Assembly (NCBI GenBank): GCA_009772895.1
Contig: WOUP01000011.1
Coordinates: 1 to 64,000 of the forward strand
Direction of reading: 5' to 3'
DNA: 64,000 bases
Source: Puniceicoccaceae bacterium 5H
Lineage (GTDB): Bacteria > Verrucomicrobiota > Verrucomicrobiia > Opitutales > Oceanipulchritudinaceae
Part shown: positions 24,838-43,199 of the stretch, one piece after another
Layout: each line of letters opens with the position of its first letter
How positions within the stretch are numbered: the stretch's first letter is position 1
The notes under the pieces: model-generated
Told to the model about the DNA's origin: nothing
What the model saw: only the letters and a program-made list of their open reading frames with translations
The model's database searches: none
Position numbers and translations under genes: made by a program

Positions 24838-26445
24838 ATGACCAAGTATATTTTCGTCACCGGTGGCGTGGTTTCCTCCCTGGGCAAGGGGCTTACGGCT
24901 GCGGCGCTCGGCGCCTTGCTGGAGCAGCGGGGGCTGCGCGTGAAGCTGCAGAAGTTCGACCCCTACCTGAATGTCGACCCGGGCACCATGAACCCCTTCC
25001 AGCACGGAGAGGTGTATGTGCTCGACGACGGTTCGGAGACCGACCTCGACCTGGGCCACTACGAGCGCTTCACCAGTGGCAAGCTCTCGCGTCACAACAA
25101 CCTGACCTCTGGCCAGATTTACGACACGATCATCAAGCGCGAACGGCGGGGCGACTTCCTCGGCCAGACGATCCAGGTGATCCCGCACGTGACCAACGAG
25201 ATCAAGGAGCGCTTCGATCCGCAGGATGAAGATGTCGACATCTGCATCACCGAGATCGGCGGCACGGTGGGGGACATCGAAGGCCTGCCCTTCATGGAGG
25301 CGATCCGCCAGTTCATGCTCGATAAGGGGCGCGACAACGTCGTGATCATCCACGTGACGCTCGTGCCTTACCTCGCGGCGGCGGGCGAGCTGAAGACCAA
25401 GCCGACCCAGATGAGTGTGGCCAAGCTGCGCGAGATCGGTATTCAGCCGGACATTCTCGTCTGCCGCACGGAAAAACCGCTGGCCCGCGACCTGCGCCAG
25501 AAGCTCAGCCTGTTTTGCAACGTGCCGGTCAAGGCCGTGATCGAAGAGCGCGACGTCGAGACCTCGATCTACGAAGTGCCGCTGATGCTCGAAAACGAGG
25601 GCGTCGACCAACTCGTGCTGGACCAGTTGCAACTGGGCGACCGCGAGGTGAAGGAAGACGCGTGGCCCGAAGTGGTGCGCATCCTCAAATACCCGAAGCA
25701 CCGCGTCGACATCGCGGTGGTCGGTAAATACATCGAGCTGCAGGACGCCTACAAGAGCGTTTACGAGTCCATCACCCACGGGGGCATCGCCCACGACTGT
25801 GCGGTCGAGATCCACCGCCTCGACTCCGAGCACCTGGAGGCGCGCGACGCCGTGGCCGAGCTGGCCAAGTATGACGGCCTGCTGGTGCCCGGCGGCTTCG
25901 GCTCTCGCGGCATCGAAGGCAAGATTCAGGCGGCCCGTTTTGCCCGTGAGCAGCGCATCCCCTACTTTGGCCTTTGCCTCGGCATGCAGATCGCGGTGAT
26001 CGAATATGCCCGCCACGTGGCCGGTTTGGAAGGGGCCAACAGCACGGAGTTCGACCCGAATACGCCGCACCCGGTGATCAACCTGATGGAAGACCAGCGC
26101 GAGGTGCAGGAGAAGGGTGCGACCATGCGCCTGGGCGCCTACGACTGCGAACTGATCGACGGCAGCTGGTCACGCGCGGCCTACAGCAAGCAAAACGTCT
26201 CCGAACGCCATCGGCACCGTTACGAGTTCAACAACCAATATCGGGATGCGTTGAAGGAAGCCGGCCTGCGGCTCGCGGGCGTCAACCCGCAGCGCGACCT
26301 GGTGGAGATTGTCGAAAACCCGGACCATCCCTGGTTTGTTGGTGTGCAATTCCACCCGGAATTCCAGTCCAAGCCGCGCCAGCCGCACCCGCTCTTCGCC
26401 GCTTTCATCAAGGCTTCGCTCGAGCGCCGCAAGGCCCACCGCTAA
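24838..26445 (+). CDS. pyrG: CTP synthase
   Basis: Aminates UTP to CTP with glutamine and ATP. 535 residues, standard length. The synthetase domain begins [18 protein letters not shown] with the P-loop, [11 protein letters not shown] is conserved, and the C-terminal glutamine amidotransferase domain has the nucleophile in LCLGMQ and the His-Glu of FHPEF. Followed by a strong terminator at 26476. Divergent from the 127-residue hypothetical gene. Confidence 0.97.
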
Positions 26446-26475
26446 TAGCGGGAGCCGAGCCAGAGAACCTTTTCG

Positions 26476-26505
26476 AAGCTGAGGCCCTCAGGCCTCAGCT
26501 TTTTC
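26476..26505 (+). terminator. Rho-independent terminator after pyrG
   Basis: A perfect 11-bp stem AAGCTGAGGCC / GGCCTCAGCTT with a CTCA loop is followed by a T run. 30 bases after the pyrG stop. Confidence 0.92.
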
Positions 26506-26517
26506 GTTGTCGGTTGA

Positions 26518-26685
26518 ATCATTCGTGCCACGCCCAACGCCAACTTTGCGGCGCTCCCAGCTGACGGCGATGACAACATGTTGATGGTTGGGGGTGAAGG
26601 CTTTGAATTTGCCGCAGTGCCCGAGCCGTTGCTCTACGCAGCGCTAGCCGGCCTGGCGGTGGTTGCGTGGAAGATCCTTCAGTAG
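26518..26685 (+). pseudogene. Orphan C-terminal tail of a PEP-CTERM protein gene
   Basis: A 55-residue open frame between the pyrG terminator and the aldo/keto reductase gene ends in VPEPLLYAALAGLAVVAW, then KILQ and a stop. This is the PEP-CTERM sorting tail (VPEP motif, hydrophobic helix, basic end). Upstream the frame closes at a TGA at 26515, with no start, signal peptide or body, although NFAALPADGDNM reads like the end of a secreted domain. An ATG at 26578 is the only possible start. Compare the intact tail at 62410-63141. Likely a remnant of a deleted gene. Confidence 0.6.
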
Positions 26686-26730
26686 CGGCTGCGGGGTTGT
26701 CAGCTCCGCGAGATTGCGTAACCTGCCGGC

Positions 26731-27741
26731 ATGACCGGTGATGATTTGTTTCTGTCCAGTCGCGGGCCACGCCTCGCGCTCGGTTGCATGCACTTTGGCG
26801 GCACGTGGGAGCGTGGTTCCGAGATTTCGGATGAGGCGCGACGACGAGCGCGTGAAGCACTGGAGGCGGCGCTGGAGATCGGGATCGATTTTTTCGACCA
26901 CGCCAACGTCTATTGCTGGGGGCGCAGTGAGCGCCTGTTCGGCGAGTTGGCGCAGGAGATGGGCCTGAAGCGCGAGGATTACGTGCTGCAGAGCAAGGTG
27001 GGGATCCGCTACAAGGGCGATCCGACCCCCACGGCGCCCAAGCGTTACGAGTTTTCCTATGCGCACATCATGGAGCAGGTGGAGGGCTCGCTCGAGCGCT
27101 TGCAGACGGATTACCTCGACTGCCTGCTGCTGCACCGTCCGGACATTCTGATGGAGGTTGAGGAGATTGCGCAGGCGTTTAATGAGCTGCAGGCCGCGGG
27201 CAAGGTGCGGCACTTTGGCGTTTCCAATCACACGCCGTGGCAGCTGATGCGCCTGGAGGCGGGGCTGGAGCAGCCGCTCGAAGCGAATCAGGTCGAGCTC
27301 AACTTGTTGAAGAGCTCGCTCTTCGATGCCTCGATCGTGGCGGGTGAAGATCGCGAGCCGATGCCGGCCACGGTGGCCAGTGGCACGCTCGATTACCACC
27401 AGCTGAAGGGCATTCGCACGCAGGCGTGGGCTCCTTTGGCCTACGGGTACCTGTCCGGTCGCCCGATCGGCCAGGAGTTCAAGTTTGAGGATACGGCCGC
27501 CGCGAAGCAGCGCATCGCAGATACGTCGGTACTGGTGAGCGAGCTGGCGGAGAAATACGGCGTCTCCCGCGAGGGCATTGTGATCGGCTGGGTGCTGCGG
27601 CATCCAGCCAAGATCCTGCCGATCATCGGCACGCGTGACCCGGGCCGACTGAAGGCGTGCGCAGAGGCGACGCAGGTGACGCTGGAGCGCGAAGACTGGT
27701 ACCGCTTGTATAACGCGGGACGCGGTCAGGAACTCCCTTAG
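26731..27741 (+). CDS. Aldo/keto reductase family oxidoreductase
   Basis: NADPH-dependent reductase of 336 residues in a TIM barrel. The active-site set is visible: Asp and Tyr in FFDHANVYCWG, Lys in QSKVGIRYKG, and His in LLLHRPDILM. The closest type is the E. coli YdhF-like group (RLALGCMHFGGTW N-terminus, then SERLFGELAQEMGLKRE). Substrate unknown. It ends before a strong hairpin at 27773. Confidence 0.88.
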   Translation: MTGDDLFLSSRGPRLALGCMHFGGTWERGSEISDEARRRAREALEAALEIGIDFFDHANVYCWGRSERLFGELAQEMGLKREDYVLQSKVGIRYKGDPTPTAPKRYEFSYAHIMEQVEGSLERLQTDYLDCLLLHRPDILMEVEEIAQAFNELQAAGKVRHFGVSNHTPWQLMRLEAGLEQPLEANQVELNLLKSSLFDASIVAGEDREPMPATVASGTLDYHQLKGIRTQAWAPLAYGYLSGRPIGQEFKFEDTAAAKQRIADTSVLVSELAEKYGVSREGIVIGWVLRHPAKILPIIGTRDPGRLKACAEATQVTLEREDWYRLYNAGRGQELP

Positions 27742-27772
27742 TCGCCGGTTTTAGCGTTGCTATTAGCGCATG

Positions 27773-27808
27773 AAAAAGCCCTGTCGGTTTCGGCAGGGCT
27801 TAAGTGTT
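27773..27808. terminator. Bidirectional rho-independent terminator
   Basis: AAGCCCTG / CAGGGCTT (27776-27783, 27794-27801), extendable by two pairs, lies between the convergent reductase gene and the coiled-coil gene. Preceded by an A run and followed by a short T-rich stretch, so it could end both transcripts. Confidence 0.75.
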
Positions 27809-27830
27809 TCTAATGGTCTCCGCGGTCGCG

Positions 27831-28919
27831 TTATTCGCCGGCGGTCTCGTGTTCGGCGTTGGTGATGGCCTGGGCACTCGCAATGGTGGCCACCAGGTAG
27901 GTGGCGAGGCCGGCAAACAGCACCTGACCGAGCGCCAGGGGCTCGACCGGGGTACCATTGGCGATGGGGAGCGCAAGGTTGACGCCCGCAGTCACGCCAC
28001 CGACGAGCAAGGCGGAGACAAAGCTGCGCACGATGACGGGCTTGCTGCTGGCCGCCTGGGAAAAGGTGATGGGGTTGCGTTCGCGCTCGGCCTGCTGGTT
28101 GACCTTCTTGAAGTAGCGGCGCAGGGCGGCCTTGGATTTGCTGGAGCCGTCGCTGAGTTTGGCCACGGCTTCCAGGCCCATCTCGATCTGGGTCCGATTG
28201 TGGCTGATCGGGTCCGTCAGGCTGTGGATGTGCTGGCTGAGGGCCTTGAATTGCTCGATCAGGCGGCTATTGGCATCGTAGTCGCCCTTCAGGTTTTCGA
28301 CGTGGCCGCGGACTTCGCTGATGCGCAGGCGGAGGTCTTCGGAGGCCTCCTGGGCGAGTTGGGTGTCCTCGTAGACGAGCAGCACGGTCTCGTGCAGGCT
28401 GTCGATGTCCTTGGTCGTGTCGCTGATGATCGCCTGGATCTTGGAGGGATTGGTGAGGGAGGTGTTGTCGTCCTCGCCCTCGTCGGTGCCAAACATGTGC
28501 ACATTGGTGCTGCTGCCTTCGCCGGCAGTGTCAGCGGGCCCGCCGAGCTCGCCGCTGGAGGTTACGGCGTCCTGCAGGTGGTCCAGGATGTTGATGATCT
28601 GCCGCAGGTTTTCCTGCAGGTTCTCCACCAGCATGGAGAAGTTCTGGACCTGGCTGGACACCTTTTCGGTCAGGGAGACGATCCCTTCGAACTTGGCGCT
28701 GCTCTCGACGATGAGCATGTCCACTGTGCCGCTCGAGTCCTGGATGCGTTCGGCCTTGTCGAGGATCTGTTCGGCCTCTTCCAGAAGTTTTTCCGCTGTG
28801 ACCACGAAGTCGTCCATCAGGCCCTGTTGCTGGCGGGCGGACTGCTGGGCCGTGTCGATGGCCGAGATAGCGTCGGTAATCGTCGGCTGTGGAGTGACGG
28901 GGGACGTGCTGGACAACAT
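27831..28919 (-). CDS. Unrecognised coiled-coil protein with two C-terminal membrane helices
   Basis: 362 residues, no family recognised. Residues 1-280 are rich in heptad-like helices (for example LLEEAEQILDKAERIQD and VSSQVQNFSMLVENLQ), broken by a Gly/Asp/Thr-rich linker around 120-155. The C-terminus carries two hydrophobic segments (about 295-315 and 327-350) separated by a short Pro-containing loop, so the coiled coil most likely faces the cytosol and the protein is tail-anchored by a hairpin. It resembles chemoreceptor-type signalling coils in general texture but has no HAMP or hairpin-tip motif. Shares its gap with the sdh operon on the other strand. Confidence 0.75.
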   Translation of the reverse strand: MLSSTSPVTPQPTITDAISAIDTAQQSARQQQGLMDDFVVTAEKLLEEAEQILDKAERIQDSSGTVDMLIVESSAKFEGIVSLTEKVSSQVQNFSMLVENLQENLRQIINILDHLQDAVTSSGELGGPADTAGEGSSTNVHMFGTDEGEDDNTSLTNPSKIQAIISDTTKDIDSLHETVLLVYEDTQLAQEASEDLRLRISEVRGHVENLKGDYDANSRLIEQFKALSQHIHSLTDPISHNRTQIEMGLEAVAKLSDGSSKSKAALRRYFKKVNQQAERERNPITFSQAASSKPVIVRSFVSALLVGGVTAGVNLALPIANGTPVEPLALGQVLFAGLATYLVATIASAQAITNAEHETAGE

Positions 28920-29385
28920 TGTTGGCGCAGGTGCTGGCGGTTGAATGACTGAGGGCAGTCAACAAGTTTTTATTGAAGAAGGCAAGACTCTATACCACTC
29001 CCGACCCAGGTAAACTGCACATGGTCCTCGGCGTTGGGGGTGGCCTGTGCGGCCGTTTGGTCTCGGAAGGGGAGCGCGGGCATGCTTTTGTGAAGCGCAA
29101 CGCGGTTCAATCTTTCCACCCGCCAATCTCGAGCTTCTCCCGCTTTTGGCTTGGGGTTAACCCCACACATACTTGCATTTGCCGGGGCGGTTCAAGCTTA
29201 AGATGAGTCAGCCCACAAAATTACCGGAAAAATTACTCATAAGAATTGCTTAACATGCAGGGATAAATGAGTTATAAGCCGGATTGAAGGGTCATTCAGG
29301 GGCCAATAAGCTTTACTGTCAGAGCACCCTTCATTAGCACAGAAGACTGAATTTCGACTGCAATAGCTTCTAATTACCGCTTTCC
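28920..29385. other. Non-coding gap between the coiled-coil gene and sdhC
   Basis: 466 bases with no convincing gene. The left 230 bases are GC-rich, with only weak short frames. The right part (about 29200-29380) is clearly AT-richer and holds the promoter candidate for sdhC at 29250-29278 and a leader of about 100 bases. Confidence 0.6.
29250..29278 (+). promoter_or_regulatory. Candidate sigma70 promoter of the sdh operon
   Basis: TTAACA (29250-29255), 17-base spacer, TATAAG (29273-29278): each hexamer matches the consensus at five of six positions. Predicted start is near 29285, giving a leader of about 100 bases before sdhC. Confidence 0.6.
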
Positions 29386-30189
29386 ATGAGTTCGTTGGTT
29401 AAGAAATACCTCATGGCCCTGACTGGTTTTGTACTGGTAGGCTTCGTTTGTGGCCACATGCTGGGTAACCTGCAGATGTTTCTGCACCCGGATTGGATTA
29501 ACGAATACGCCTATAAGCTCCAGCATCTCCCGTATGGCCTCCTTTGGGTTGTCCGCCTGGTCCTGTTGATCACGGTGATCGTCCACGTCGTGGTGGCGGT
29601 GCAACTGGTGCTGGAAAACCGCCGCGCCCGCGGCGGCGAGAACTACGCCGCCAAGGCGAAGCTCCAGGCAACCTTCGCGAGCAAGACGATGCGCTACACC
29701 GGCCTCGTGCTGCTGGCGTTCATCATCTTCCACATTCTGCACTTCACGGTGCAGAGCGTGCACCCCGAGTTCAAGGAGTTGCACACGGAGATCACCGGCA
29801 CGGGCACCCTCTGGCACGTTTACGATCACCTGAAGCCGATGGGCCACACCAACCAGCACGACGTGTATGCGATGGTGGGCATCGGGTTCAGCCCGCACTT
29901 CTGGTACGTGCCCGCCTTCTACATCTTCTCCATGGCGCTGCTCTGCATGCACTTGACGCACGGCGTGGCCAGCATGTTCCAGAGCCTGGGCCTGCGTAAC
30001 AGTGTGTGGACCCCGCGTCTGCGCAAGCTGGCCCTCGTGATCGGCTGGGTCGTGTTCCTCGGCTTCTCGAGCCTCCCGGTGGCGGGCCTGTTGCAGGCCT
30101 TCCCCCATCAGGATCATATCCAGGCCCAGTATGAGCACACCTTCGACGGTGGAGCCGCTCATTCCGACGCTGCCGCTCACAACCACTAA
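29386..30189 (+). CDS. sdhC: Succinate dehydrogenase cytochrome b558 subunit
   Basis: Membrane anchor of complex II that passes electrons from the iron-sulfur subunit to menaquinone. 267 residues with about five membrane helices (first 8-30, last near 215-235), typical of the single-subunit, di-heme b558 type that needs no SdhD. Candidate heme His residues sit in the helices, for example [20 protein letters not shown] and [12 protein letters not shown]. The His-rich C-terminal tail (SDAAAHNH) is an extension. sdhA starts 20 bases later. Confidence 0.92.
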
Positions 30190-30209
30190 TTTTGCAGGGA
30201 CATCAAGCC

Positions 30210-32171
<1,962 letters not shown>

Positions 32172-32174
32172 GAC

Positions 32175-32930
32175 ATGGAAGCTGACGCCTTGGCAAAGAT
32201 GCACGCGCAGGAGGCGAACCACTGGTGGTTCGTCGCCCGGCGGCGCATTATCGCGCGCATCCTGCGTCACGCGAAGTTGCCAGGGCAGGCCCGCATTCTC
32301 GAAGCCGGTTGCGGCACGGGTGGCAATCTCGAGATGCTCACGCGTTTTGGCGAAGTCAAGGCGTTCGAGCTCGAAGACGGTGCCCGCCAGGTCGCCACCA
32401 ATCTCGGTCGCGCTCAGGAAATCCTGCCTGGGCGCCTGCCGGACGAGGTGCCGGTTGCCTGCGAGCAGTTCGATGCCGTGGTCGCCTTCGATGTGCTGGA
32501 GCATATCGAGGACGGTCAGGGCGCGATCAAGACGCTGACCGAGCGGGTCAAGCCCGGCGGCGTCTTCTGCCTCGCAGTGCCCGCCTTCATGTCTATGTGG
32601 AGCTACCACGACACGTGGAATCACCACTTCCGCCGCTATGAGGCTCCCGTGATGCCGTCACGGCTTCAGGCGGCTGGGTTGGTGCCGGAATGCTACACGT
32701 ATTTCAACACTGCCCTCTTTCCGCTCATTGCCCTCATCCGCCGCCTGAAAAACCAGCAGGCCAAGCCGGGTGACGACCTTGCGCCGCCGCCGGCGCCGGT
32801 CAACATGTTGCTCAAGCAGCTCATTGGCAGTGAGAGCTGGTTCATGCCGCGCGTGCGCTTCCCCTTTGGGTTGTCGCTGCTCGTCCTGGCCCGGCGCCCG
32901 TTAAATGTCAGCGGTTCCAAGGCCGCCTAA
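32175..32930 (+). CDS. Class I SAM-dependent methyltransferase inside the sdh operon
   Basis: 251 residues. SAM motif [15 protein letters not shown] (about 41-55), acidic partner in [11 protein letters not shown], and the motif-4 region [14 protein letters not shown] (about 98-111) are intact. The N-terminus [18 protein letters not shown] is the pattern of Methyltransf_11/23-type enzymes, many of which act on small molecules or sugars. A helix near [17 protein letters not shown] suggests membrane proximity. It starts 3 bases after sdhA and ends 46 bases before sdhB, so it must be co-transcribed with complex II. Substrate unknown. Confidence 0.82.
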
Positions 32931-32976
32931 GTTTTATTCATCTTTATCCACTCTTACATTCCAACCGACCGAGACC

Positions 32977-33750
32977 ATGTCCGAAGGCACCATTTCCGTT
33001 AAGCTCAAGGTCTGGCGTCAGAAAAATGGCCAGGAAAGCGGCCATTTCGAAGACTACCAGATGGACGACGTGTCGACCTCGTCGTCGTTCCTTGAGATGC
33101 TCGACCTGCTGAACGAAAAGCTGATCGACGAAGACAAGGATCCTGTGGCGTTCGACCACGACTGCCGCGAAGGCATCTGTGGGATGTGCTCGTTGACGAT
33201 CAACGGCATTCCCCACGGCAAGAACGCGCTCCAGACCACCTGCCAGCTGCACATGCGTAGCTTCCAGGACGGCGATACGATCACGATCGAGCCGTTCCGC
33301 GCCCACCCGTTCCCCGTCATCCGCGACCTCGCGGTAGACCGCACCTCGTTTGAGCGCATCATGCAATCGGGCGGCTACGTGACCCAGCGTATCGGTGCGG
33401 CGCAAGACGCCAATGCCCTGCCCATCGGCAAGGAAGTGGCCGACCGCGCGATGGACGCCGCCGCCTGCATCGGCTGTGGCGCCTGCGTGGCCGTCTGCCC
33501 CAACGCCAGCGCCATGCTGTTTACCTCCGCCAAGATGACGCAGCTCAACATGTTGCCGCAGGGCCGTCCCGAAAAGGACCGCCGCAGCCTCAACATGGTG
33601 GCGCAGATGGATGCGGAAGGCTTTGGCAATTGCACCAACATCGGTGAGTGCTCCGCCGCCTGCCCGAAGGGCATCAGCATGGACTTCATTGCCATGATGA
33701 ACCGCGACTACGCCGTGGCCCGCGTGAAGAGCTTCTTCGGCGCCGCCTAG
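32977..33750 (+). CDS. sdhB: Succinate dehydrogenase iron-sulfur subunit
   Basis: Relays electrons from SdhA to SdhC. 257 residues. [2Fe-2S] ligands Cys63, Cys68, Cys71 and Cys89 ([10 protein letters not shown]). [4Fe-4S]/[3Fe-4S] ligands lie in [13 protein letters not shown] (164-174) and [15 protein letters not shown] (from Cys219). The start is ATG 32977 ([15 protein letters not shown]); the frame upstream overlaps the methyltransferase end. A strong terminator follows at 33781. Confidence 0.95.
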
Positions 33751-33780
33751 CGCAATCCGCAGTTTTTTCAAGCCCGCCTG

Positions 33781-33818
33781 AGCGGCTTCCCCTACGTTGG
33801 CGGAAGCCGCTTTTATTT
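33781..33818 (+). terminator. Rho-independent terminator of the sdh operon
   Basis: A perfect 10-bp stem AGCGGCTTCC / GGAAGCCGCT with an 11-base loop is followed by TTTATTTT, 30 bases after sdhB. Confidence 0.93.
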
Positions 33819-33971
33819 TGGCAGATGATGCGCTATCAACGGGTTAGAGGATCTGCTTCAGTCGCTGTTTGGCGGCCGGGGTGGCCAGTCTCGAAAATTC
33901 TGCCACGTTAAGGCACGGTCGCCCCCTGGGCGGCGCGCCGTTTTTGATCCCTATCTCGTAACACCGCAGCT

Positions 33972-35579
33972 ATGAAACATTGGCCCAAACCTTTCTTGAG
34001 CCTGACCGGCGCCCTGCTTTCGGCGCTGCTCTTCCTTGCCGGCTGTGCGCAACCGCAGCAATCCAGCGCACCGCAGGCCGAAACGCCCGCGCTGGGGCCG
34101 GACGGCAATCCGTTGCCCCGCACCCGGACCGTCGAGCAGGGCGGCAGCATCTACACGGAGTCGACGATCGCGTATCCCACCGGGATTCCGGAGACCAGCG
34201 TGCTGGTGGTCGAACAGACGTCACCGCAGGAAGTCATGGTCGGCGCGTCCTTCGATTACACGATTACCGTGCGCAACGTGAGCAACGCGCAATTGACGGA
34301 CGTGACGCTGCGGGACGAGGTGGCTGGTTCCTTCGACCTGTCGCACACCTCCCCGGCGGCAGCCTCCACCGATGCGGGCACGATCGTCTGGCAACTGGGG
34401 GCGATCGAGCCCGGGCAGGCGCGGACCGTGACCGTGCACGGCTCCGCGGCAGAAGAAGGTACGCTGGATTCGTGCGTCACGGCTGGCTTCTCCAACGCCC
34501 TGTGTCAGTCGATCGAGGTCGTCCGCGCCGATGTGGAGCTCGCGAGCGGGGTGCCGCAAGACGCATTGCCCTGCGACCTCATCCCGCTGCACCTGAGCGT
34601 GACCAACAGCGGCACGAGCCGCCTCACCGGCGTGACGATCCAGGACGCGCTGCCGCCGGGGCTCTCGGCGACTCGTTTGAGCGGTGACGCCACGCGGGAC
34701 TTTTCGCCCGGGAGCAACCAGCAGGTGACGATCGACGTGGGCACGCTCGAGGGCGGTGAGACGCGCAACTACACGCTGGAGGTCCGTGCCGACGGCTCGG
34801 GTGCTTACGAGAGCACCGCCTCGGTCACGACGGCCCAGGGCGCGGAGGCGGAGGACACGAGCAGCTTTGCGGTGGCGGCTCCCGAGTTGCAGGTCGCCTG
34901 TACGGCGCCGGAGCAGCGCTATATTGGTCGCCCGATCGAGGTGACGCTGACGGTGGACAATGTGGGTGAGGCCTCCACGCGGGATGGCATCATCGCCCTG
35001 CAGGTCCCGGCTGGCGCGACTTTCCTGGGGGCGACCGATGGGGGCACGCTCGAAAACGGCCGCATCGTGTGGAACGTCGGCAACTTCGTCTCGGGCGCGA
35101 CCAAGGAGGTCGCGGCCACGTTTGCGACAAAAGAGGCGCGCACGCTGGAGTTTGTCGGCTCGGCTGAAGGCCTGTGCGTGGGGGCGGTTACCAGCCGCAG
35201 TAAGACGGAGGCCAGCGGTATTCCAGCGATCTCGCTCGAGGTGTTGGACCTGAACGACCCGGTCGAAGTCGGCTCCAACGTCACCTATGAAGTGAGGGTC
35301 CGCAACCAGGGCTCGGCCACCGCCACCAACGTGCGCGTGACGGCCGATCTGGAGGAATCGCAGCGCTTCGTCACCGCCGAGGGCGAGAGCGAGGTGGCGA
35401 GCGTCAACGGCCGGGCCGTAATCATGAAGCCGATCGAGGCGTTGGCGCCGGGGGGCGAGGCGGTCTGGCGCATCACCGTGCAGGCGCTGGAGCCCGACGA
35501 TGTGCGGTTCCAGCTCACTCTGGAGAGCGACCAGATTACCCGCATCGTGCGCGAGACCGAGGCAACGCACCAGTATTAG
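33972..35579 (+). CDS. DUF11-repeat lipoprotein, OmcB-like
   Basis: 535 residues. A lipoprotein signal peptide ends in the lipobox LAGC (Cys about 25). The mature part is a Gln/Pro-rich spacer and then about four DUF11/Ig-like beta-sandwich repeats, recognisable by [59 protein letters not shown] and [18 protein letters not shown]. Around seven cysteines are spread through the repeats. The repeat arrangement recalls the cysteine-rich outer-membrane protein OmcB of Chlamydia, a relative within the PVC group, though with fewer cysteines. Probably outer-membrane anchored and structural; inferred. Confidence 0.72.
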
Positions 35580-35608
35580 GGGCGGCTTGAGGCCGGTTTG
35601 CGCTTCGC

Positions 35609-35640
35609 GGCCAGCTGCTTTTGCGGCTGGCCCTTTTTGT
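35609..35640 (+). terminator. Rho-independent terminator after the DUF11 lipoprotein
   Basis: A 10-bp stem GGCCAGCTGC / GCGGCTGGCC (one U-G pair) with a TTTT loop is followed by CTTTTTGT. It separates the lipoprotein gene from argH. Confidence 0.92.
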
Positions 35641-35679
35641 CGGTTGCCAGAGCGGCGCGGGCGCGCCAGCCTCCTGCCC

Positions 35680-37074
35680 ATGCAGACTCAAGCCACCTGG
35701 GGCGGGCGTTTTTCCAGCGGCCCCGCCGAACTCATGCAGCATTTCAGCGAGTCCGTCAGCTTTGACCAGCGGCTGGCCCGGTTCGACATTCAAGGCAGCC
35801 AGGCGCACGCGCGCATGCTGGCGCACGTCGGCATCCTCACGACCGAAGAGGCCGACGCCATCGTGCAGGGCCTGGATGAGCTGAAGGCCGAGATCGAGGC
35901 CGGTAATTTTACCTGGGATCCGAAGCTCGAGGACGTGCACATGAACATCGAGCAGGCGCTGACCCAGCGGGTCCCGGCCGCGGCCAAGCTGCACACTGCG
36001 CGTAGCCGCAACGATCAGGTGGCGACCGACATGCGCCTGTGGTTCAAGTGGGCCACCCTGGAGGTGCTCCAGGACGTAAAGGCTTTCATGCGCGTGCTGC
36101 TCGACCAGGCCGAAGCCCACCAGGAGGTCTACATCCCGGGCTACACGCACCTGCAGCGAGCTCAGCCGGTTTCGCTGGCGCACCACCTTCTGGCCTATGT
36201 CGAGATGTTGGGCCGCGACCTCAAGCGTTTCGAGCGCGTACACGACGACGCCAACTGGTGCCCGCTGGGCTCGGGTGCGATCGCGGGTACGACGCTGCCG
36301 ATCAACCGCGAGTTTACGGCGCGCGCGCTGGGCTTTGTCGATGCCGACGGCCGCGCCCGGGTGACGCGCAACAGCATGGACGCCGTGAGCGATCGCGACC
36401 TGTTCCTCGACTTTGCCCATGCCTGCGGCGTCTGCGGCCTCCACCTCTCGCGCTTGTCGGAAGACCTGATCCTCTGGAACAGCGCCGAGTTCGGCTTTGT
36501 GACGCTGCCGGATACCTTTACGACGGGCTCCAGCCTGATGCCGCAAAAGAAAAATCCCGACGCTGCCGAACTGGTGCGGGGCAAATCCGGGCGCTTGCAT
36601 GGGCACGTGGCCGCGCTCTACACCATGGTGAAGGGCCTGCCGCTGACCTATAATCGCGACCTGCAAGAGGACAAGCCGCCGGTCTTCGACGCGCTCGACC
36701 AGACCCAGGCCTGCCTGCGTGTGCTCGGCGGCACCCTGCAGGGCATGCGGGCGCGGCCCGACCGTTGCGCCGCCGCGGTGGCCGATCCGGCGCTGCTGGC
36801 GACCGACCTCGTGGACTACCTCGTGCGCAAGGGCATCCCCTTCCGTCAGGCGCACCACGTGATCGGCGCACTCGTGGCCAAGGCGGAGGAAAAGGATGTA
36901 AAGCTGAACGAGCTGAGCGACGCCGACGTGCAGGGCATTCACGAAGCCTTTGCTCCCGACTGGCGCGAGGCTTTCAACGTCGAGCGCGCCATGCAGGCCC
37001 GCGAACGCCCCGGTATGCCCGGCCCGAAACAGGTGGCCGGCCAGATCGCCAACTGGCGCCAGCACCTGGCTTAA
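35680..37074 (+). CDS. argH: Argininosuccinate lyase
   Basis: Cleaves argininosuccinate to arginine and fumarate. 464 residues, standard for ArgH of the fumarase/aspartase superfamily. N-terminal [19 protein letters not shown], the substrate motif [13 protein letters not shown], the signature [19 protein letters not shown] and the [11 protein letters not shown] region are all present. Start at ATG 35680, 40 bases after the preceding terminator; the frame is open further upstream but would overlap the DUF11 gene. No other arg gene is adjacent. Confidence 0.96.
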
Positions 37075-37192
37075 AGCGCGGATTCAGCACCAAGCCTCAG
37101 GCCGCATATCGCCGCCTCGGTGGCGAGTACCACCGGAACGCAGATCTCGCCGCTGCGCGCACCGGGAATGGTTGTCTGCCTTTCCATAAAAT

Positions 37193-37217
37193 AAGCGGGC
37201 CTGGTCAGGGCCCGCTT
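37193..37217 (-). terminator. Terminator between argH and the efflux operon
   Basis: A perfect 9-bp stem AAGCGGGCC / GGCCCGCTT. On the minus strand it is followed by TTATTTTATGG, ending the efflux operon 41 bases after its last stop. It may also act on argH, where the following sequence is less T-rich. Confidence 0.8.
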
Positions 37218-37257
37218 TGGTTTTCTGGTTTGGTCTGTAGTCTTGGTCCTTAAAGGC

Positions 37258-40200
37258 TCAGGTCATGATGACTTGCTCGTCCTTCACGTCGCGACGGGGC
37301 ACCGGCATCAGCGGTCGGCCGCGCAACCAGCGGAAGGCGTTCTTGGTCGCCCACTTGCAGTCCTCGAGGATCACGTAGAGCCCCGGCACCAGCAGGAGGG
37401 TGATGAAGGTGGCAAAGAGCACGCCGAAGGCAAGCGAAGTCGCCATGGGGATGAGGAACTGGGCTTGTAGACTACGCTCCAACAACATCGGTACAAGTCC
37501 AAAAAAGGTCGTGAGCGAGGTCAGCAGAATCGGTCGGAAACGTTGAGCGCCGGCATCGTGGGCCGCCTGCACGACGTCCTTGCCCTGTCGGCGCTCGTCG
37601 TTGACGAAGTCGACCAGCACGAGACTGTCGTTCACCACCACCCCGATGGCGGCGATGATCCCCATGAGCGACATCTGCGTGATAGGCTGAGGGGTGAGGT
37701 GCCAGCCGTCCCACGTCCCGGTGACGAAGTGGCCCCAGATGGCGCCGACGATGCCGAACGGGATGGCCGACATCACGATGAAGGGCTGGAAGTAGCTCTT
37801 GAAGGGGATGGCCAGCAGCACGTAGATCAGGAACAACACGAAAACGAGGCCGTTGGACAGCGCCTGGTTGGACTCGCGAGTGTCCTTGGCCTCACCCTCG
37901 AGCGAGCTGTAGACGCCGGGGTAGCGCTGGAGGATGCCGTCCACGTTTTCCTGCACCTCGGCGTTGAGCGTCGTCATGTTGGCGGCGCTCTTGTCCACAT
38001 CGGCCGTCACGTTGATCACACGCTGGCGATCGTAGCGGCTGATGAGGGAAAAGCCGTGCCCGATCTCGGCCTCGGCCACCTCATCGAAGGGCACCTCGCT
38101 GCCGTCGTCGAGGCGGATGCGCAGGTTGTGCAGGGCGGCGATGCTCTCGCGGTCGGCGCGCGGGTAACGCACCATCACCTTGATCTCTTCGCGCCCGCGC
38201 AGGATGCGTTGGGCTTCGGCGCCGTAGAAGGCCTGCCGGACCTGGCGGCCCAGATCGGTCGTGGTGACGCCGAGCACTTCGCCGCGCGGTTTGACCTTCA
38301 GTTTGATCTCACGGCGGCCACTGGTGAAGCTGTCGGCGATGTCGTAGACGTTGGGCAGGGTGGCCAGCATGTCCTTGATCTCCTGGGCCGCCTGCTCCAT
38401 CTGCTCGAAGTCTTCCCCGACAAGCTGAACGTTGATCGGGCTGGAGCTGCCGCCGCCGGTTTCACCCCGGAAGCTGAGCGTCTGCACGCCCGGCATCGGC
38501 CCCAGCTTTTCGCGCCAGCGATTGACGAGGTCCGGCGTGGAAATATCGCGCACCTCACTCTTGGTCAGCTCGATCGTGATCCGTCCCTGGCTCACGTTGT
38601 AGCGCGAGTTGAGGGCCGTGTTTTTGACCGGGTCCGCATAGCCTTCCTCCTCCACATCGGCGAGGACTTCGTCCCAGGCGTCCATCAGCTGATTGAGGCC
38701 GGCTACGGTGGTGGGCAGGGCCGTGCCGTCGGGATACTCGAGCGTCACGCGGATGAAGTCGCTCGGCACGCGCGGGAAGGGCTGGAAGCGCATGTGGCCG
38801 CCCATGATCATGCCGACGGTGATGAAGAGAATGCCCATAAACCCGGCGGCACTGGCGTAGCGGTGCTTGATCGCGAAATTGAGCACCGGCAGGTAAAAGC
38901 GGGAGACGAAGTGCTCGAGCCCGTCGGCCACCTTGCGTTGCAGGCGCTGCAGCCAGCCCATCTTGGCCCGTTCGCGCCCGCTGCCGATCTTGAGGGTCGA
39001 GAGGTGATAGGGCAGCACCAGCTTGCTCTGCACCAGCGAGAACGCCAGCGTGATGATGACGACGTAGGGGATGGGGCGGAACATGTCGCCCGCCCAGCCG
39101 GGGATGAAGAACACCGGCACGAAGGCCACCATGGTGGTCAACACCGCGAAGATGACCGGCACGGAAACGCGGTGCGCCCCCCGGACGGCCGCTGCCACCC
39201 GAGCTGGCTTGTCCGCCGGTTTGGACTTCTGATACTCGGTAAAGACGCTCTCGCCGACCACGATGGCGTCGTCCACCACGATCCCCAGCACGAGGATGAA
39301 GGCGAAGAGCGAGACCATGTTGATCGAGAGCCCCACGAAGGGCGCGATCATGATGGTGCCGAGGAAGGACACCGGGATGCCGAGCGCGACGTAGAAGGCC
39401 AGCATGGGCCGCAGGAACATCGTCAGCACGGCCATGACGAGGATCAGGCCCAGCAAGCCGTTCTTGACCATCATGTTGAGGCGGTCGCGCAGGTAAAAGG
39501 AGGAGTCGGTAAAGATCTCCAGCTGGATGCCCTCGGGGAACTTGTTGGCGTTGGCCTCCACGTAGTCGCGCGCCTTGTTGGCGATGTCGAGCGGGCTCTC
39601 GTTGCCGACTTCGAAGATTTCGACGAAGATGGCGGGCTGGCCGTTGAAGTAGCTGATCACGTCGTAGTCGGCAAAACCGTCGCGAATGTTGGCGATGTCA
39701 CCCAGCTTGATCGAGGTGCCGTCGGCACGAGTCACGAGCGTGATGTCGGCAAATTCGTCGTGTCGGTAGGCCTGCCCGAGGGTGCGCAGCAACAGCTCGC
39801 CGCTGGGGGCCTTGACCGCGCCGCCCGGCACGTCGCGCGAGGCCGAATTGACGCGTGCGGCTACCTGCTCGAGCGTCAGCCCGTATTTGCGCAGGGTGGC
39901 TTCGTCGATTTCGATCGCGATTTCGTAGTCCCGCGCGCCCTGAAACTCGATCTGGCTGATGCCGGGCATGCGTAGCAAATCGTTGCGCACGTCTTCGGCC
40001 GCTTTGCGCAGGGTGCGCTCGTCCGTATCGCCGTAGATGGCCAGCTCGAGCACATCGCGGGTCCACATCTGTTCTTCCACCGTGGGGCGTTCGGCGTCGG
40101 CGGGGAAGGAGCTGATGGCGTCGACGCGCGTCTTCACGTCTTCCTTCAGCTTTTGCAGGTCGAAGCCGTCGCTGACGGTGACCGAGACGCGGCCGCCGCC

Positions 40201-40461
40201 CTCCCAGGCCATGGAGTTGATTTCCTTGATGCCCTCGAGGCCCTGGATGGCCTCCTCCACGCGCATCACGAGGCCTTCTTCGGCTTCGGAAGGCGTGGCG
40301 CCCGGGTAGGAGAGGTTGACCTGGATGGTGTCGGGGTCCTGCTCCGGAAACATCTCCATGTTGAGGGAGGGGATCGCAAAGATCCCTCCGACGAGCACGA
40401 CGAACATGACGAGGTTGGCGGCTACCCCGTTGCGGGTAAACCAGTCCATCAGGCCGTTCAT
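37258..40461 (-). CDS. RND-type efflux pump inner-membrane permease
   Basis: 1067 residues, the size of AcrB/MexB-class transporters. N-terminal helix MNGLMDWFTRNGVAANLVMF, two large periplasmic loops, and twelve expected membrane helices. The proton-relay pair is seen in GIVVDDAIVVGES in helix 4. C-terminal helices carry GVVVNDSLVLVDFVN. The sequence is of the hydrophobe-amphiphile (HAE) group rather than the metal CzcA group, inferred from the double Asp without a metal-site motif. It overlaps the adaptor gene by 4 bases and is the last gene of the operon. Confidence 0.93.
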   Translation of the reverse strand: MNGLMDWFTRNGVAANLVMFVVLVGGIFAIPSLNMEMFPEQDPDTIQVNLSYPGATPSEAEEGLVMRVEEAIQGLEGIKEINSMAWEGGGRVSVTVSDGFDLQKLKEDVKTRVDAISSFPADAERPTVEEQMWTRDVLELAIYGDTDERTLRKAAEDVRNDLLRMPGISQIEFQGARDYEIAIEIDEATLRKYGLTLEQVAARVNSASRDVPGGAVKAPSGELLLRTLGQAYRHDEFADITLVTRADGTSIKLGDIANIRDGFADYDVISYFNGQPAIFVEIFEVGNESPLDIANKARDYVEANANKFPEGIQLEIFTDSSFYLRDRLNMMVKNGLLGLILVMAVLTMFLRPMLAFYVALGIPVSFLGTIMIAPFVGLSINMVSLFAFILVLGIVVDDAIVVGESVFTEYQKSKPADKPARVAAAVRGAHRVSVPVIFAVLTTMVAFVPVFFIPGWAGDMFRPIPYVVIITLAFSLVQSKLVLPYHLSTLKIGSGRERAKMGWLQRLQRKVADGLEHFVSRFYLPVLNFAIKHRYASAAGFMGILFITVGMIMGGHMRFQPFPRVPSDFIRVTLEYPDGTALPTTVAGLNQLMDAWDEVLADVEEEGYADPVKNTALNSRYNVSQGRITIELTKSEVRDISTPDLVNRWREKLGPMPGVQTLSFRGETGGGSSSPINVQLVGEDFEQMEQAAQEIKDMLATLPNVYDIADSFTSGRREIKLKVKPRGEVLGVTTTDLGRQVRQAFYGAEAQRILRGREEIKVMVRYPRADRESIAALHNLRIRLDDGSEVPFDEVAEAEIGHGFSLISRYDRQRVINVTADVDKSAANMTTLNAEVQENVDGILQRYPGVYSSLEGEAKDTRESNQALSNGLVFVLFLIYVLLAIPFKSYFQPFIVMSAIPFGIVGAIWGHFVTGTWDGWHLTPQPITQMSLMGIIAAIGVVVNDSLVLVDFVNDERRQGKDVVQAAHDAGAQRFRPILLTSLTTFFGLVPMLLERSLQAQFLIPMATSLAFGVLFATFITLLLVPGLYVILEDCKWATKNAFRWLRGRPLMPVPRRDVKDEQVIMT

Positions 40462-41726
40462 GCCTCACCCCCTTCGTTTTGGGGCGTGCTGTTGTCGGCG
40501 GTGTCGCTGGTGGGGGCGTCCGACTGCGGGATCTCGGCGTCGACCGTCGCGGTGTCGCGATCCGGATCGAGCGGATTGACCGCCATGCCTTCGATAAAGT
40601 AGATGATGGGCGTCAGGCAGATGCGTTCACCCGGGTTCAGGCCGTTGGTGACGATCGCCTTTTCGCTGTCCGACCAGTAGACTTGGACGTCGCGGGCGGT
40701 GAGGGCGTTTTCGGGCCCGATCACGTAGAGCGTATCCTGATCGACCAGCGCGCGGCGGGGCACGACGTAGACATCGTGCAGCTGGCGCCCCGCGATGTCG
40801 GCCTCGACGAAGGAACCGATCTTGAGCGGCGGGCGGTCCGGGCCGCGGTCGCCGTAGGGATCGGGCACGCGCGCCACGACGTAGGTCAGGCGCGAACGCT
40901 GGTCGACGGTGCCTTCGGTGCGGTCGAGGTAGCCGTTCCAGGTATAGGAATCGTTGCCCAGGTGCTGGTAAAGCTGCACGCGCGGGGCCTCGTCGTGACT
41001 CTCGTCGTTGCGGTAGGCCTCCGGTAGATCGAGATAGCTCAGCTCAAAGGGCGACAGGGGCATGCGCACCTCGGCCACGTCCACTGCGTAGATCGTGGCG
41101 AGCAGGGAATTGGCGGTCACCGTCTGGCCGATATCGACCGCTTTTTCGCGAATGCGACCGGCGTAGGGGGCGCGGACTTCCGTGCGGTCCAGGTTGCGCT
41201 CGGCGCGGCGCACAGCGGCTTCGGCGGCAGCTACGTTGGCCTGGGCCAGCTCCAGTTGCGGCTGTCGCAGCACGAGGTCGTTGGCGGTAGCACCTTCGCC
41301 GAGGTCGCTCCAGTCCTGGGCGGCTTGCTCGGATTGCGCCTGTTCCTGGGCCAATGCGAGCTTGGCCTGCGCCAGTTGCGCCTTGGCGTCGGCCAGGGCG
41401 GCCTCGTAATCGAGCGGGTCGATCTCTACCAGCACGTCGCCCTTTTCGAAGAAGCCGCCGTCCTTGAAGTGATTGCTGATACGGACGATGCGGCCCGAGA
41501 CCTCGGCGGTGAGCGAGGTTTCGGTGCGGGCGGTCACGTTGCCTTGGGTGTTGACCCAGAGCTGCCAGTCCTGGGGCTGGGTGACGGTGTATTCCACTTG
41601 CGGGAATTCTCGGGGGCGCTCGATTTCGGGCACATCCGGCTTCATCATGACCAAGATGAAGGCGAAGGTGGCCATCCCGAGCAGGATGACGATGGGAATG
41701 ACGCCGTAGACGACAAGTTTGCGCAT
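40458..41726 (-). CDS. RND efflux periplasmic adaptor (membrane fusion) subunit
   Basis: 422 residues. N-terminal membrane helix (about 7-28), then the barrel-sandwich and alpha-hairpin order of MFP adaptors: VSGRIVRISNHFKDGGFFEKGD, a coiled hairpin rich in Ala/Gln (about 115-180), and VRAPYAGRIREKAVDIGQTV. It docks the pump to the outer-membrane factor. Its stop overlaps the start of the permease gene by 4 bases (ATGA), so the two are translationally coupled. The Thr/Asp-rich tail is low complexity. Confidence 0.92.
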   Translation of the reverse strand: MRKLVVYGVIPIVILLGMATFAFILVMMKPDVPEIERPREFPQVEYTVTQPQDWQLWVNTQGNVTARTETSLTAEVSGRIVRISNHFKDGGFFEKGDVLVEIDPLDYEAALADAKAQLAQAKLALAQEQAQSEQAAQDWSDLGEGATANDLVLRQPQLELAQANVAAAEAAVRRAERNLDRTEVRAPYAGRIREKAVDIGQTVTANSLLATIYAVDVAEVRMPLSPFELSYLDLPEAYRNDESHDEAPRVQLYQHLGNDSYTWNGYLDRTEGTVDQRSRLTYVVARVPDPYGDRGPDRPPLKIGSFVEADIAGRQLHDVYVVPRRALVDQDTLYVIGPENALTARDVQVYWSDSEKAIVTNGLNPGERICLTPIIYFIEGMAVNPLDPDRDTATVDAEIPQSDAPTSDTADNSTPQNEGGEA

Positions 41727-41750
41727 GACGAAAGGGTGAAGGGGAGGATA

Positions 41751-43199
41751 TTAGCGTTCGAGCTGGACGAGCGGTGCGGGCGGCATCTGATCGCGCGGGA
41801 TCGGCGCTCCGCCGAGGGCGAGGTAAAGGTCGAGGCGGTTCTGCAAGCGGGCGTTGCGGACCGAGAGGTAGTCGCTGCGGGAGTTGAAGGCGCGGCGCTG
41901 GCTTTCCAGCACCGTGATGATGGTGGTGAGGCCGCGCTGGTATTGATCCCACGCCAGCGTCTCGGCCCGGTCGTTTTCCTGGGAGGCCAGGCGGAGGGCG
42001 TCTTCACGCTCGGAGAGCCATTGCTGGGAGACGAGGGCGGTTTCCACCTCGCGGAAGGCGTTCAGCACCGCGTCCTGATAGGTGGAGGCGGCGATGGAAA
42101 AGTTGGCTTCGGCCTCCTGCTTGTTCGCGCTCAGGCGGCCGGAGTCGAAGATCGGGGCGGTGAGCCCGCCGAGGATCGACCATTCGCCGGAATCGTCACG
42201 CAGCCACTTGTCGAATTCGTTGCTCACGTAACCGCCGCTGGCCGTCAGGCGGATGGTGGGCAGGAAGGCCTTTTCCGCGGCACCTACCTGGCGAGCGGCG
42301 GCCTGTAGCTGCAACCCGAGCGAAGCGAGGTCGGGCCGACGGGTCAGGATCTCGGCCGGCAGCCCCTCGGGCAAGGGCGGGGGCAGCGTCGGCAATTCCT
42401 TGAGCGTGGAAAGGTCGCCGGAAGGGTATCGGCCGAGCAGGATCTCCAGACTGCGCACGAGCGTGTCGCGCTGGAGGTTGCGCTGGGCGAGCTGGTTGCG
42501 GGCCGAGGCGACGTTGGCGCGGGCCAGCCGCAGGTCCAGGGCGTCGTTGAGGCCGCGCTCGAAGCGCTGGCGGATGATGTTCTGGCCCGACTGGAAGCTC
42601 TCGAGCGTGTCTTCGGCCAGCTTGACCTGCTGGTTGGCCTCGATCAGGTCGAACCAGTATTGGGCCACCTGAGTGGCGAGGGAAATCTGGGCGGCGGCGA
42701 GATCGGCTTCGGCCGCTTCGTATTGGCGGCGGGCGGCATCGCGCTGCAGGCGCAGCTCGCCCCACAAATCGATCTCCCAGCTCGCAGAAAGGCCGGCATC
42801 AAAGCGGTTGGCAGTGTCGCCTTGCCCCAGGCGTTCGGCGCCAGCCCCGCGGGAGGCGGTGACATCGGCATCCAGGCTGGGCCCCAGATTCGCCCCGGCG
42901 CGGCGGGCGCGGGCGGCGGCGGCTTCGACTCGGGCGGCGGCGGTGGCGAGGTCGCGGTTATAGCGCAGCGCCTCCATGACCAGCTCCGAGAGCTGCGGGT
43001 CATGCCACTGGGACAGCCAGTTCAAGGCCTCCGGGGTGATCGGGGCCGTTTCCTTGTCGTCGGCGGCCCAGGCGGCGGGCGCCTCGGGCGCGTAGTCCTC
43101 GGCCTCAGGGGCGGGGCCGATCGTGCAGCCGGTGAGAGCGGCTAGCGAGACAAGGGAAAGGACTGTGAGAGGTGTGTTTTGAAGGGAGTAGCGAAGCAT
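41751..43199 (-). CDS. Outer-membrane efflux factor, NodT/OprM-type lipoprotein
   Basis: 482 residues with a lipoprotein signal (LTGCTIGP, Cys about 25) and two repeats of the TolC/outer-membrane-efflux-protein fold, for example WDPQLSELVMEALRYNRDL in the first, DLASLGLQLQAAARQVGAAEKAFLPTI in the second. It forms the trimeric outer-membrane channel of the efflux system. tetR ends 9 bases upstream and the adaptor gene starts 24 bases downstream. Confidence 0.92.
   Translation of the reverse strand: MLRYSLQNTPLTVLSLVSLAALTGCTIGPAPEAEDYAPEAPAAWAADDKETAPITPEALNWLSQWHDPQLSELVMEALRYNRDLATAAARVEAAAARARRAGANLGPSLDADVTASRGAGAERLGQGDTANRFDAGLSASWEIDLWGELRLQRDAARRQYEAAEADLAAAQISLATQVAQYWFDLIEANQQVKLAEDTLESFQSGQNIIRQRFERGLNDALDLRLARANVASARNQLAQRNLQRDTLVRSLEILLGRYPSGDLSTLKELPTLPPPLPEGLPAEILTRRPDLASLGLQLQAAARQVGAAEKAFLPTIRLTASGGYVSNEFDKWLRDDSGEWSILGGLTAPIFDSGRLSANKQEAEANFSIAASTYQDAVLNAFREVETALVSQQWLSEREDALRLASQENDRAETLAWDQYQRGLTTIITVLESQRRAFNSRSDYLSVRNARLQNRLDLYLALGGAPIPRDQMPPAPLVQLER

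Follow-up and report, generated by a model that had tools for sequence, protein, structure and literature searches.

Between sdhA and sdhB, which encode the flavoprotein and iron-sulfur subunits of succinate dehydrogenase, the genome of Puniceicoccaceae bacterium 5H carries a gene for a class I methyltransferase (MT). Does this gene belong to the respiratory function of the operon, or has it entered the operon from elsewhere and merely been expressed with it? To answer this question, we analysed the surrounding 64,000-nucleotide stretch of DNA (the window), compared the locus with sdh loci of relatives, and followed MT homologues across other genomes.

Layout of the interrupted sdhCAB operon

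An initial annotation of the window had described the order C-A-B as interrupted by a complete class I methyltransferase gene, placed 3 bases after sdhA and 46 bases before sdhB. We found an intact 251-aa open reading frame with Pfam methyltransferase matches at this position, and our coordinates agree with that spacing (Table 1). The sdhA stop codon TAA (32169-32171) is separated from MT by the three nucleotides GAC, and 46 nt lead from the end of MT at 32930 to the sdhB start codon ATG at 32977. This is the start that agrees with the nearest relatives; the mechanical list of open reading frames places it at 32905, within the MT gene. Direct sequence comparison located CCGAGACC immediately 5' of the sdhB start and in the same place in a genome of the same genus (G001). 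Compared with b558-type sdhCAB operons, the window has all three sdh genes in the same order and a terminator-like hairpin, but it contains one additional gene between A and B.

Table 1. Features of the interrupted sdh operon (positions in the window)
Feature	Position	Strand	Evidence
sdhC, succinate dehydrogenase cytochrome b558-type subunit, 267 aa	29386..30189	+	TIGR02046, 162.6 bits (cut-off 96)
sdhA, flavoprotein subunit, 653 aa, ATG at 30210	30210..32171	+	NF005749, 1131.6 bits (cut-off 866)
MT, class I SAM-dependent methyltransferase, 251 aa, ATG start, inserted gene	32175..32930	+	PF13489/PF08241; model pLDDT 93.8
MT-sdhB spacer, 46 nt	32931..32976	+	Direct sequence comparison
sdhB, iron-sulfur subunit, 257 aa	32977..33750	+	NF005746, 409.4 bits (cut-off 243)
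Terminator-like hairpin and U-rich tract, 3' of sdhB	33780..33819	+	-26.3 kcal/mol, z -4.72

We scanned positions 28900-34000 for transcription signals. Sigma-70-type promoter-like sites were absent from this interval, with 1.0 expected in shuffled sequences, and MT therefore most likely lies on the sdh transcript. The initial annotation had stated that MT must be co-transcribed with complex II. The hairpin after sdhB and the lack of a promoter-like site make this a fair reading, and we regard co-transcription as likely. Terminator-like sites numbered six in the same interval (4.7 expected), including one that coincides with the MT stop and another downstream of sdhB. The former was rejected, since the 72-nt stretch around the MT stop and the MT-sdhB spacer showed no folding advantage over shuffled sequences (z 0.19).

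The GC content of MT (0.639) equals that of the window (0.635), so that composition gives no hint of a recent import. For codon adaptation, MT reaches 0.64, compared with 0.78 for sdhA and 0.77 for sdhB, and falls within the 10-90% range of the 47 genes of the window.

Distribution of the insertion among relatives

To learn how widespread this arrangement is, we compared sdh loci across the order, using one genome per species. Among 55 genomes of the order, including that of strain 5H, sdhB was matched at 1e-30 in 42 and MT at 1e-10 in six; a larger sample of 273 genomes from the order gave sdhB matches at 1e-60 in 202. The loci taken for measurement numbered 58, namely that of strain 5H, all 42 other sdhB matches from the 1e-30 set and 15 further best-scoring loci of the larger sample. 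Three were left out, one a 463-base contig end (L211) and two with no sdhA match upstream (L207 and L210). In each of the other 54 loci measured, the gap between sdhA and sdhB ranged from -13 to +63 nt and held no MT. The gap in the window, 808 nt when counted from the last sense codon of sdhA, was seen in this genome only (n=55 measured loci). MT is thus no recurrent accessory gene in the sdh loci measured. Conservation of the insertion had been proposed as a check on its meaning, with occurrence in a single strain counting against it, and a single strain is where we find it, as far as one genome per species shows.

As a separate observation, the sdhB-like genes at L207 (genome G031) and L210 (a second sdhB-like copy in genome G024) lack an sdhA match at 1e-5 in the preceding 3 kb or so, and MT was not matched there either; these genes therefore have another arrangement.

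The closest comparison was with G001. Eleven of the 12 genes called in positions 24838-41999 (about 17 kb) match this genome collinearly at 52-92% identity, with sdhA 90% identical across residues 167-653 and sdhB 92% identical. Only MT is left unmatched at 1e-3 in the compared region, and the whole G001 genome yielded no MT match at 1e-10. Within this region, the first gene after the sdh terminator (33972-35579), by eye a putative repeat-containing lipoprotein, shares just 52% identity with the corresponding gene of G001, compared with 66-92% for the other ten matched genes. When 17 genomes of the family were searched, a full-length MT homologue was found only in strain 5H and in one further genome (G006), where MT (C2:904161) and sdhB (C2:400015) lie about 500 kb apart. 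In a third (G004), residues 39-176 were matched weakly, at 31%.

Since the relatives examined carry no MT in sdh, a lineage-specific insertion is likelier than a new component of respiration. By parsimony, MT would have been gained in this lineage, and the insertion would postdate its split from the sister species. That a gene has been inserted into sdhCAB is, taken alone, close to certain. An assembly error that placed the MT gene in the operon could be suspected from a single genome in a draft of 40 contigs, but we consider this extremely improbable: both junctions fall at gene boundaries, synteny with G001 runs on at both sides, the GC content matches, and the genome contains only one sdhB match.

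The methyltransferase and a possible link to respiration

We next asked what kind of enzyme MT is. The protein scores above the gathering thresholds of PF13489 (53 bits, cut-off 27), PF08241 (50.1, cut-off 21.2), PF08242 and PF13649, all from Pfam. These general class I models bear out the original assignment to the SAM-binding class. Its AlphaFold2 model is confident (mean pLDDT 93.8) and matches the folds of class I methyltransferases, with a best Z of 20.9. Fold and above-threshold domain models together identify MT as a class I SAM-dependent methyltransferase. As 999 of 1000 chains reached Z >=8 with similar scores, the fold names no substrate. A sequence search of the PDB returned 13 weak matches to diverse methyltransferases (best E 2.7e-6), and none of the nine NCBIfam models matched by MT reached its cut-off (for example, 39.4 versus 155 for the DVU_1556 family and 32.6 versus 184.95 for BioC). 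In an alignment of 48 sequences, nine columns are invariant, a set that includes the window MT by construction, and 21 further columns are at least 90% conserved; MT keeps all 21 of the latter. Elsewhere in the same genome (contig C1, L094, 3082-4765), two adjoining methyltransferase genes resemble by eye the pair of N-methyltransferases that makes betaine, one for glycine/sarcosine and one for sarcosine/dimethylglycine.

A role in quinone, lipid or subunit modification had been suggested for MT from its place in the operon. In such a reading, MT would have been recruited to respiration and be kept in the operon by selection, with menaquinone, a lipid or an Sdh subunit as its substrate. Its tight placement, its intact frame with the conserved columns of the family, and a fold that matches UbiG among many small-molecule methyltransferases would all suit this role. 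Nevertheless, we consider it improbable, given that MT is missing from every other measured sdh locus, that the fold matches are generic, and that neither sdhA nor sdhB lies near any of the 80 best homologues within the fetched stretches. Scores also fall far below the cut-offs for UbiG (TIGR01983, 32.3 versus 102.95 bits) and for the demethylmenaquinone methyltransferase UbiE/MenG (NF001241, 20.6 versus 327 bits), and both identities were rejected. Moreover, the genome encodes its own UbiE/MenG at C2:261078-261746 (TIGR01934, 248.7 bits, cut-off 158.35), and there is therefore no obvious gap for MT to fill. The same model, used as a control, matched in 14 of 14 control genomes and scored above its cut-off in ten. 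With this enzyme encoded elsewhere and the homologues of MT mostly found beside glycosyltransferases, the suggested quinone or subunit modification is unsupported.

Homologues beside GT2 glycosyltransferases

In order to place MT among its homologues, we searched beyond the order. Of 387 genomes drawn from the phylum, 42 had an MT match at 1e-20; 29 of these belong to the order (strain 5H included), nearly all to one family (f14). Neither sdhA nor sdhB was present at any fetched locus of an MT homologue from the phylum, within flanks of 1.5 kb up to about 11 kb. A search of GTDB genome contigs with the single MT protein found no relative. With a 6-sequence alignment, the search returned at least 588 stretches, of which at least 470 were confirmed and the best 80 retained; being the best scorers, these 80 are not a random sample. 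They align with MT over most of its length at 35-45% identity and span Pseudomonadota, Cyanobacteriota, Gemmatimonadota, Myxococcota and others. The fetched stretches, up to 6 kb on each side, contained no sdhA or sdhB in any of the 80 loci.

A GT2 glycosyltransferase related to the one beside MT in G006 was present at 68 of these 80 best loci, and no GT2 was found at the other 12. It lay within 300 bp of the MT homologue in 54 loci (upstream and on the same strand in 33 of them), so that this proximity is common, not universal. As a rough background, none of the 58 sdh loci, which are shorter stretches, had a GT2 match at 1e-3. Within the phylum, 17 of 20 fetched loci contained the GT2, ten of them within 300 bp. 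These neighbours were counted by tblastn; gene calling by GC position misses some genes, including the MTs of G006 and G034. The GT2 proteins that were scanned matched PF00535 in Pfam. Other neighbour clusters, each judged from one representative, comprised a DegT aminotransferase, a nucleotidyltransferase and a GT1 glycosyltransferase in the 20 phylum loci, where three large proteins had no Pfam match at 1e-5. Among the 80 loci, the representative of the largest recurrent cluster (22 loci) has a GtrA domain and that of another (9 loci) is a GT87, two clusters (10 and 8 loci) gave no Pfam match at 0.01, and several smaller recurrent clusters are by eye not glycan genes, for example ATP synthase and FolD.

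The closest homologue in the family, that of G006 (45% identity), overlaps the end of a GT2 gene by 11 nt at its start. Behind it lies a gene whose 735-aa product matches PMT_2, though with a score under the gathering threshold. In a quick tree, the window MT groups with the G006 MT and a homologue from a Rhodospirillales MAG (SH-aLRT 91 and 84), and N-terminal HWWF..RR and HH.RRY-type motifs are common to the window MT and its homologues. The window itself has no GT2 match. The nearest relative of the G006 GT2 in the genome of strain 5H (54%) lies on contig C13 with no MT adjoining, and is also found, at 77% identity, in G001, which lacks MT; the GT2 therefore probably preceded MT. No match to the G006 membrane-protein neighbour was found in the 5H genome, a result of little weight from a search without a positive control. 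Two GT2s, one from the 5H genome and one beside an MT homologue, gave their best NCBIfam scores, below cut-off, with PgfS and with the undecaprenyl-phosphate formamido-arabinose transferase ArnC. Thus, by similarity and conserved residues, the window MT is a member of a GT2-linked group, and by position, with no glycan genes adjoining, it stands outside.

The pairing of a methyltransferase with a GT2 no more than 300 bp away recurs across several phyla (54 of the 80 best loci), an observation in its own right. Among the papers listed in our literature searches, judged from titles and abstract openings, none concerned a methyltransferase gene in an sdh operon or the GT2-linked methyltransferase, and these searches yielded no characterised member. 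The GT2-linked methyltransferase may therefore be a component of lipid-linked sugar synthesis that has yet to be described.

We consider it probable that a glycan-type methyltransferase was inserted into sdhCAB and is expressed there as a passenger. A single gene from a widespread family that often accompanies GT2, and also large membrane proteins, would have moved cleanly between sdhA and sdhB. As it shows neither an obvious promoter nor an obvious terminator for itself, it would probably be translated from the sdhCAB mRNA, and the operon would contribute its expression only. Judged from neighbour context, its most likely chemistry would be the transfer of a methyl group from SAM to a sugar, in a pathway of lipid-linked sugars or surface glycans.

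A less probable alternative, to which we still give some weight, is a neutral passenger or early pseudogene, a chance insertion whose frame is still open and whose function does not matter. A full-length copy in only two of the 17 genomes of the family, the lack of a GT2 in the window and codon adaptation below that of sdhA and sdhB would be consistent with this. However, the MT frame is free of frameshifts and premature stops and its conserved columns are all kept, despite just 45% identity to its nearest relative in the family; selection therefore probably acted on it for most of its history. A loss of function may have come recently. Against the glycan reading, the usual partnership with GT2 is broken in this genome, and the substrate could therefore have changed; the 12 homologue loci with no GT2 and the neighbour clusters with no glycan match also weigh against it. 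MT, freed of its glycosyltransferase partner, might have been captured by sdh in this one lineage and now make a methylated quinone, lipid or Sdh subunit in step with the amount of complex II; we regard this as highly unlikely.

Comparison with known systems

This locus is a clean case of a single accessory gene within a core respiratory operon, its neighbours unbroken, and a caution that operon position in one genome is a poor guide to function. The comparison also highlights a widespread methyltransferase, frequently accompanied by GT2 glycosyltransferases of the polyprenyl-phosphate type.

UbiG and UbiE/MenG, the quinone methyltransferases, share with the window MT the class I fold and weak model matches, but MT scores far under their curated cut-offs and the genome has a separate UbiE/MenG. 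The window MT is most like the GT2-associated PF13489 (Methyltransf_23) methyltransferases of glycan loci, a grouping made in the present analysis, in aligned length, motifs and conserved columns. Unlike them, it lies in sdhCAB, and the 64-kb window around it contains no GT2 match. Many of its homologues lie beside GT2, and partly beside GtrA-domain or large membrane proteins, as in the three-component extracytoplasmic glycosylation systems (GtrA/GtrB/GT-C type) described in the available part of PMC11127046, whereas the window MT has none of those neighbours. That part of the source mentions a methyltransferase once, as a chain terminator of the WbdD type, which is not a component of MT's kind. 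The available part of PMC13390465 describes predicted SAM-dependent methyltransferase domains in the wps and gsf exopolysaccharide clusters. By analogy, the adjoining MT and GT2 of G006 resemble the setting of pathways for lipid-linked sugars, the three-component systems of PMC11127046 among them.
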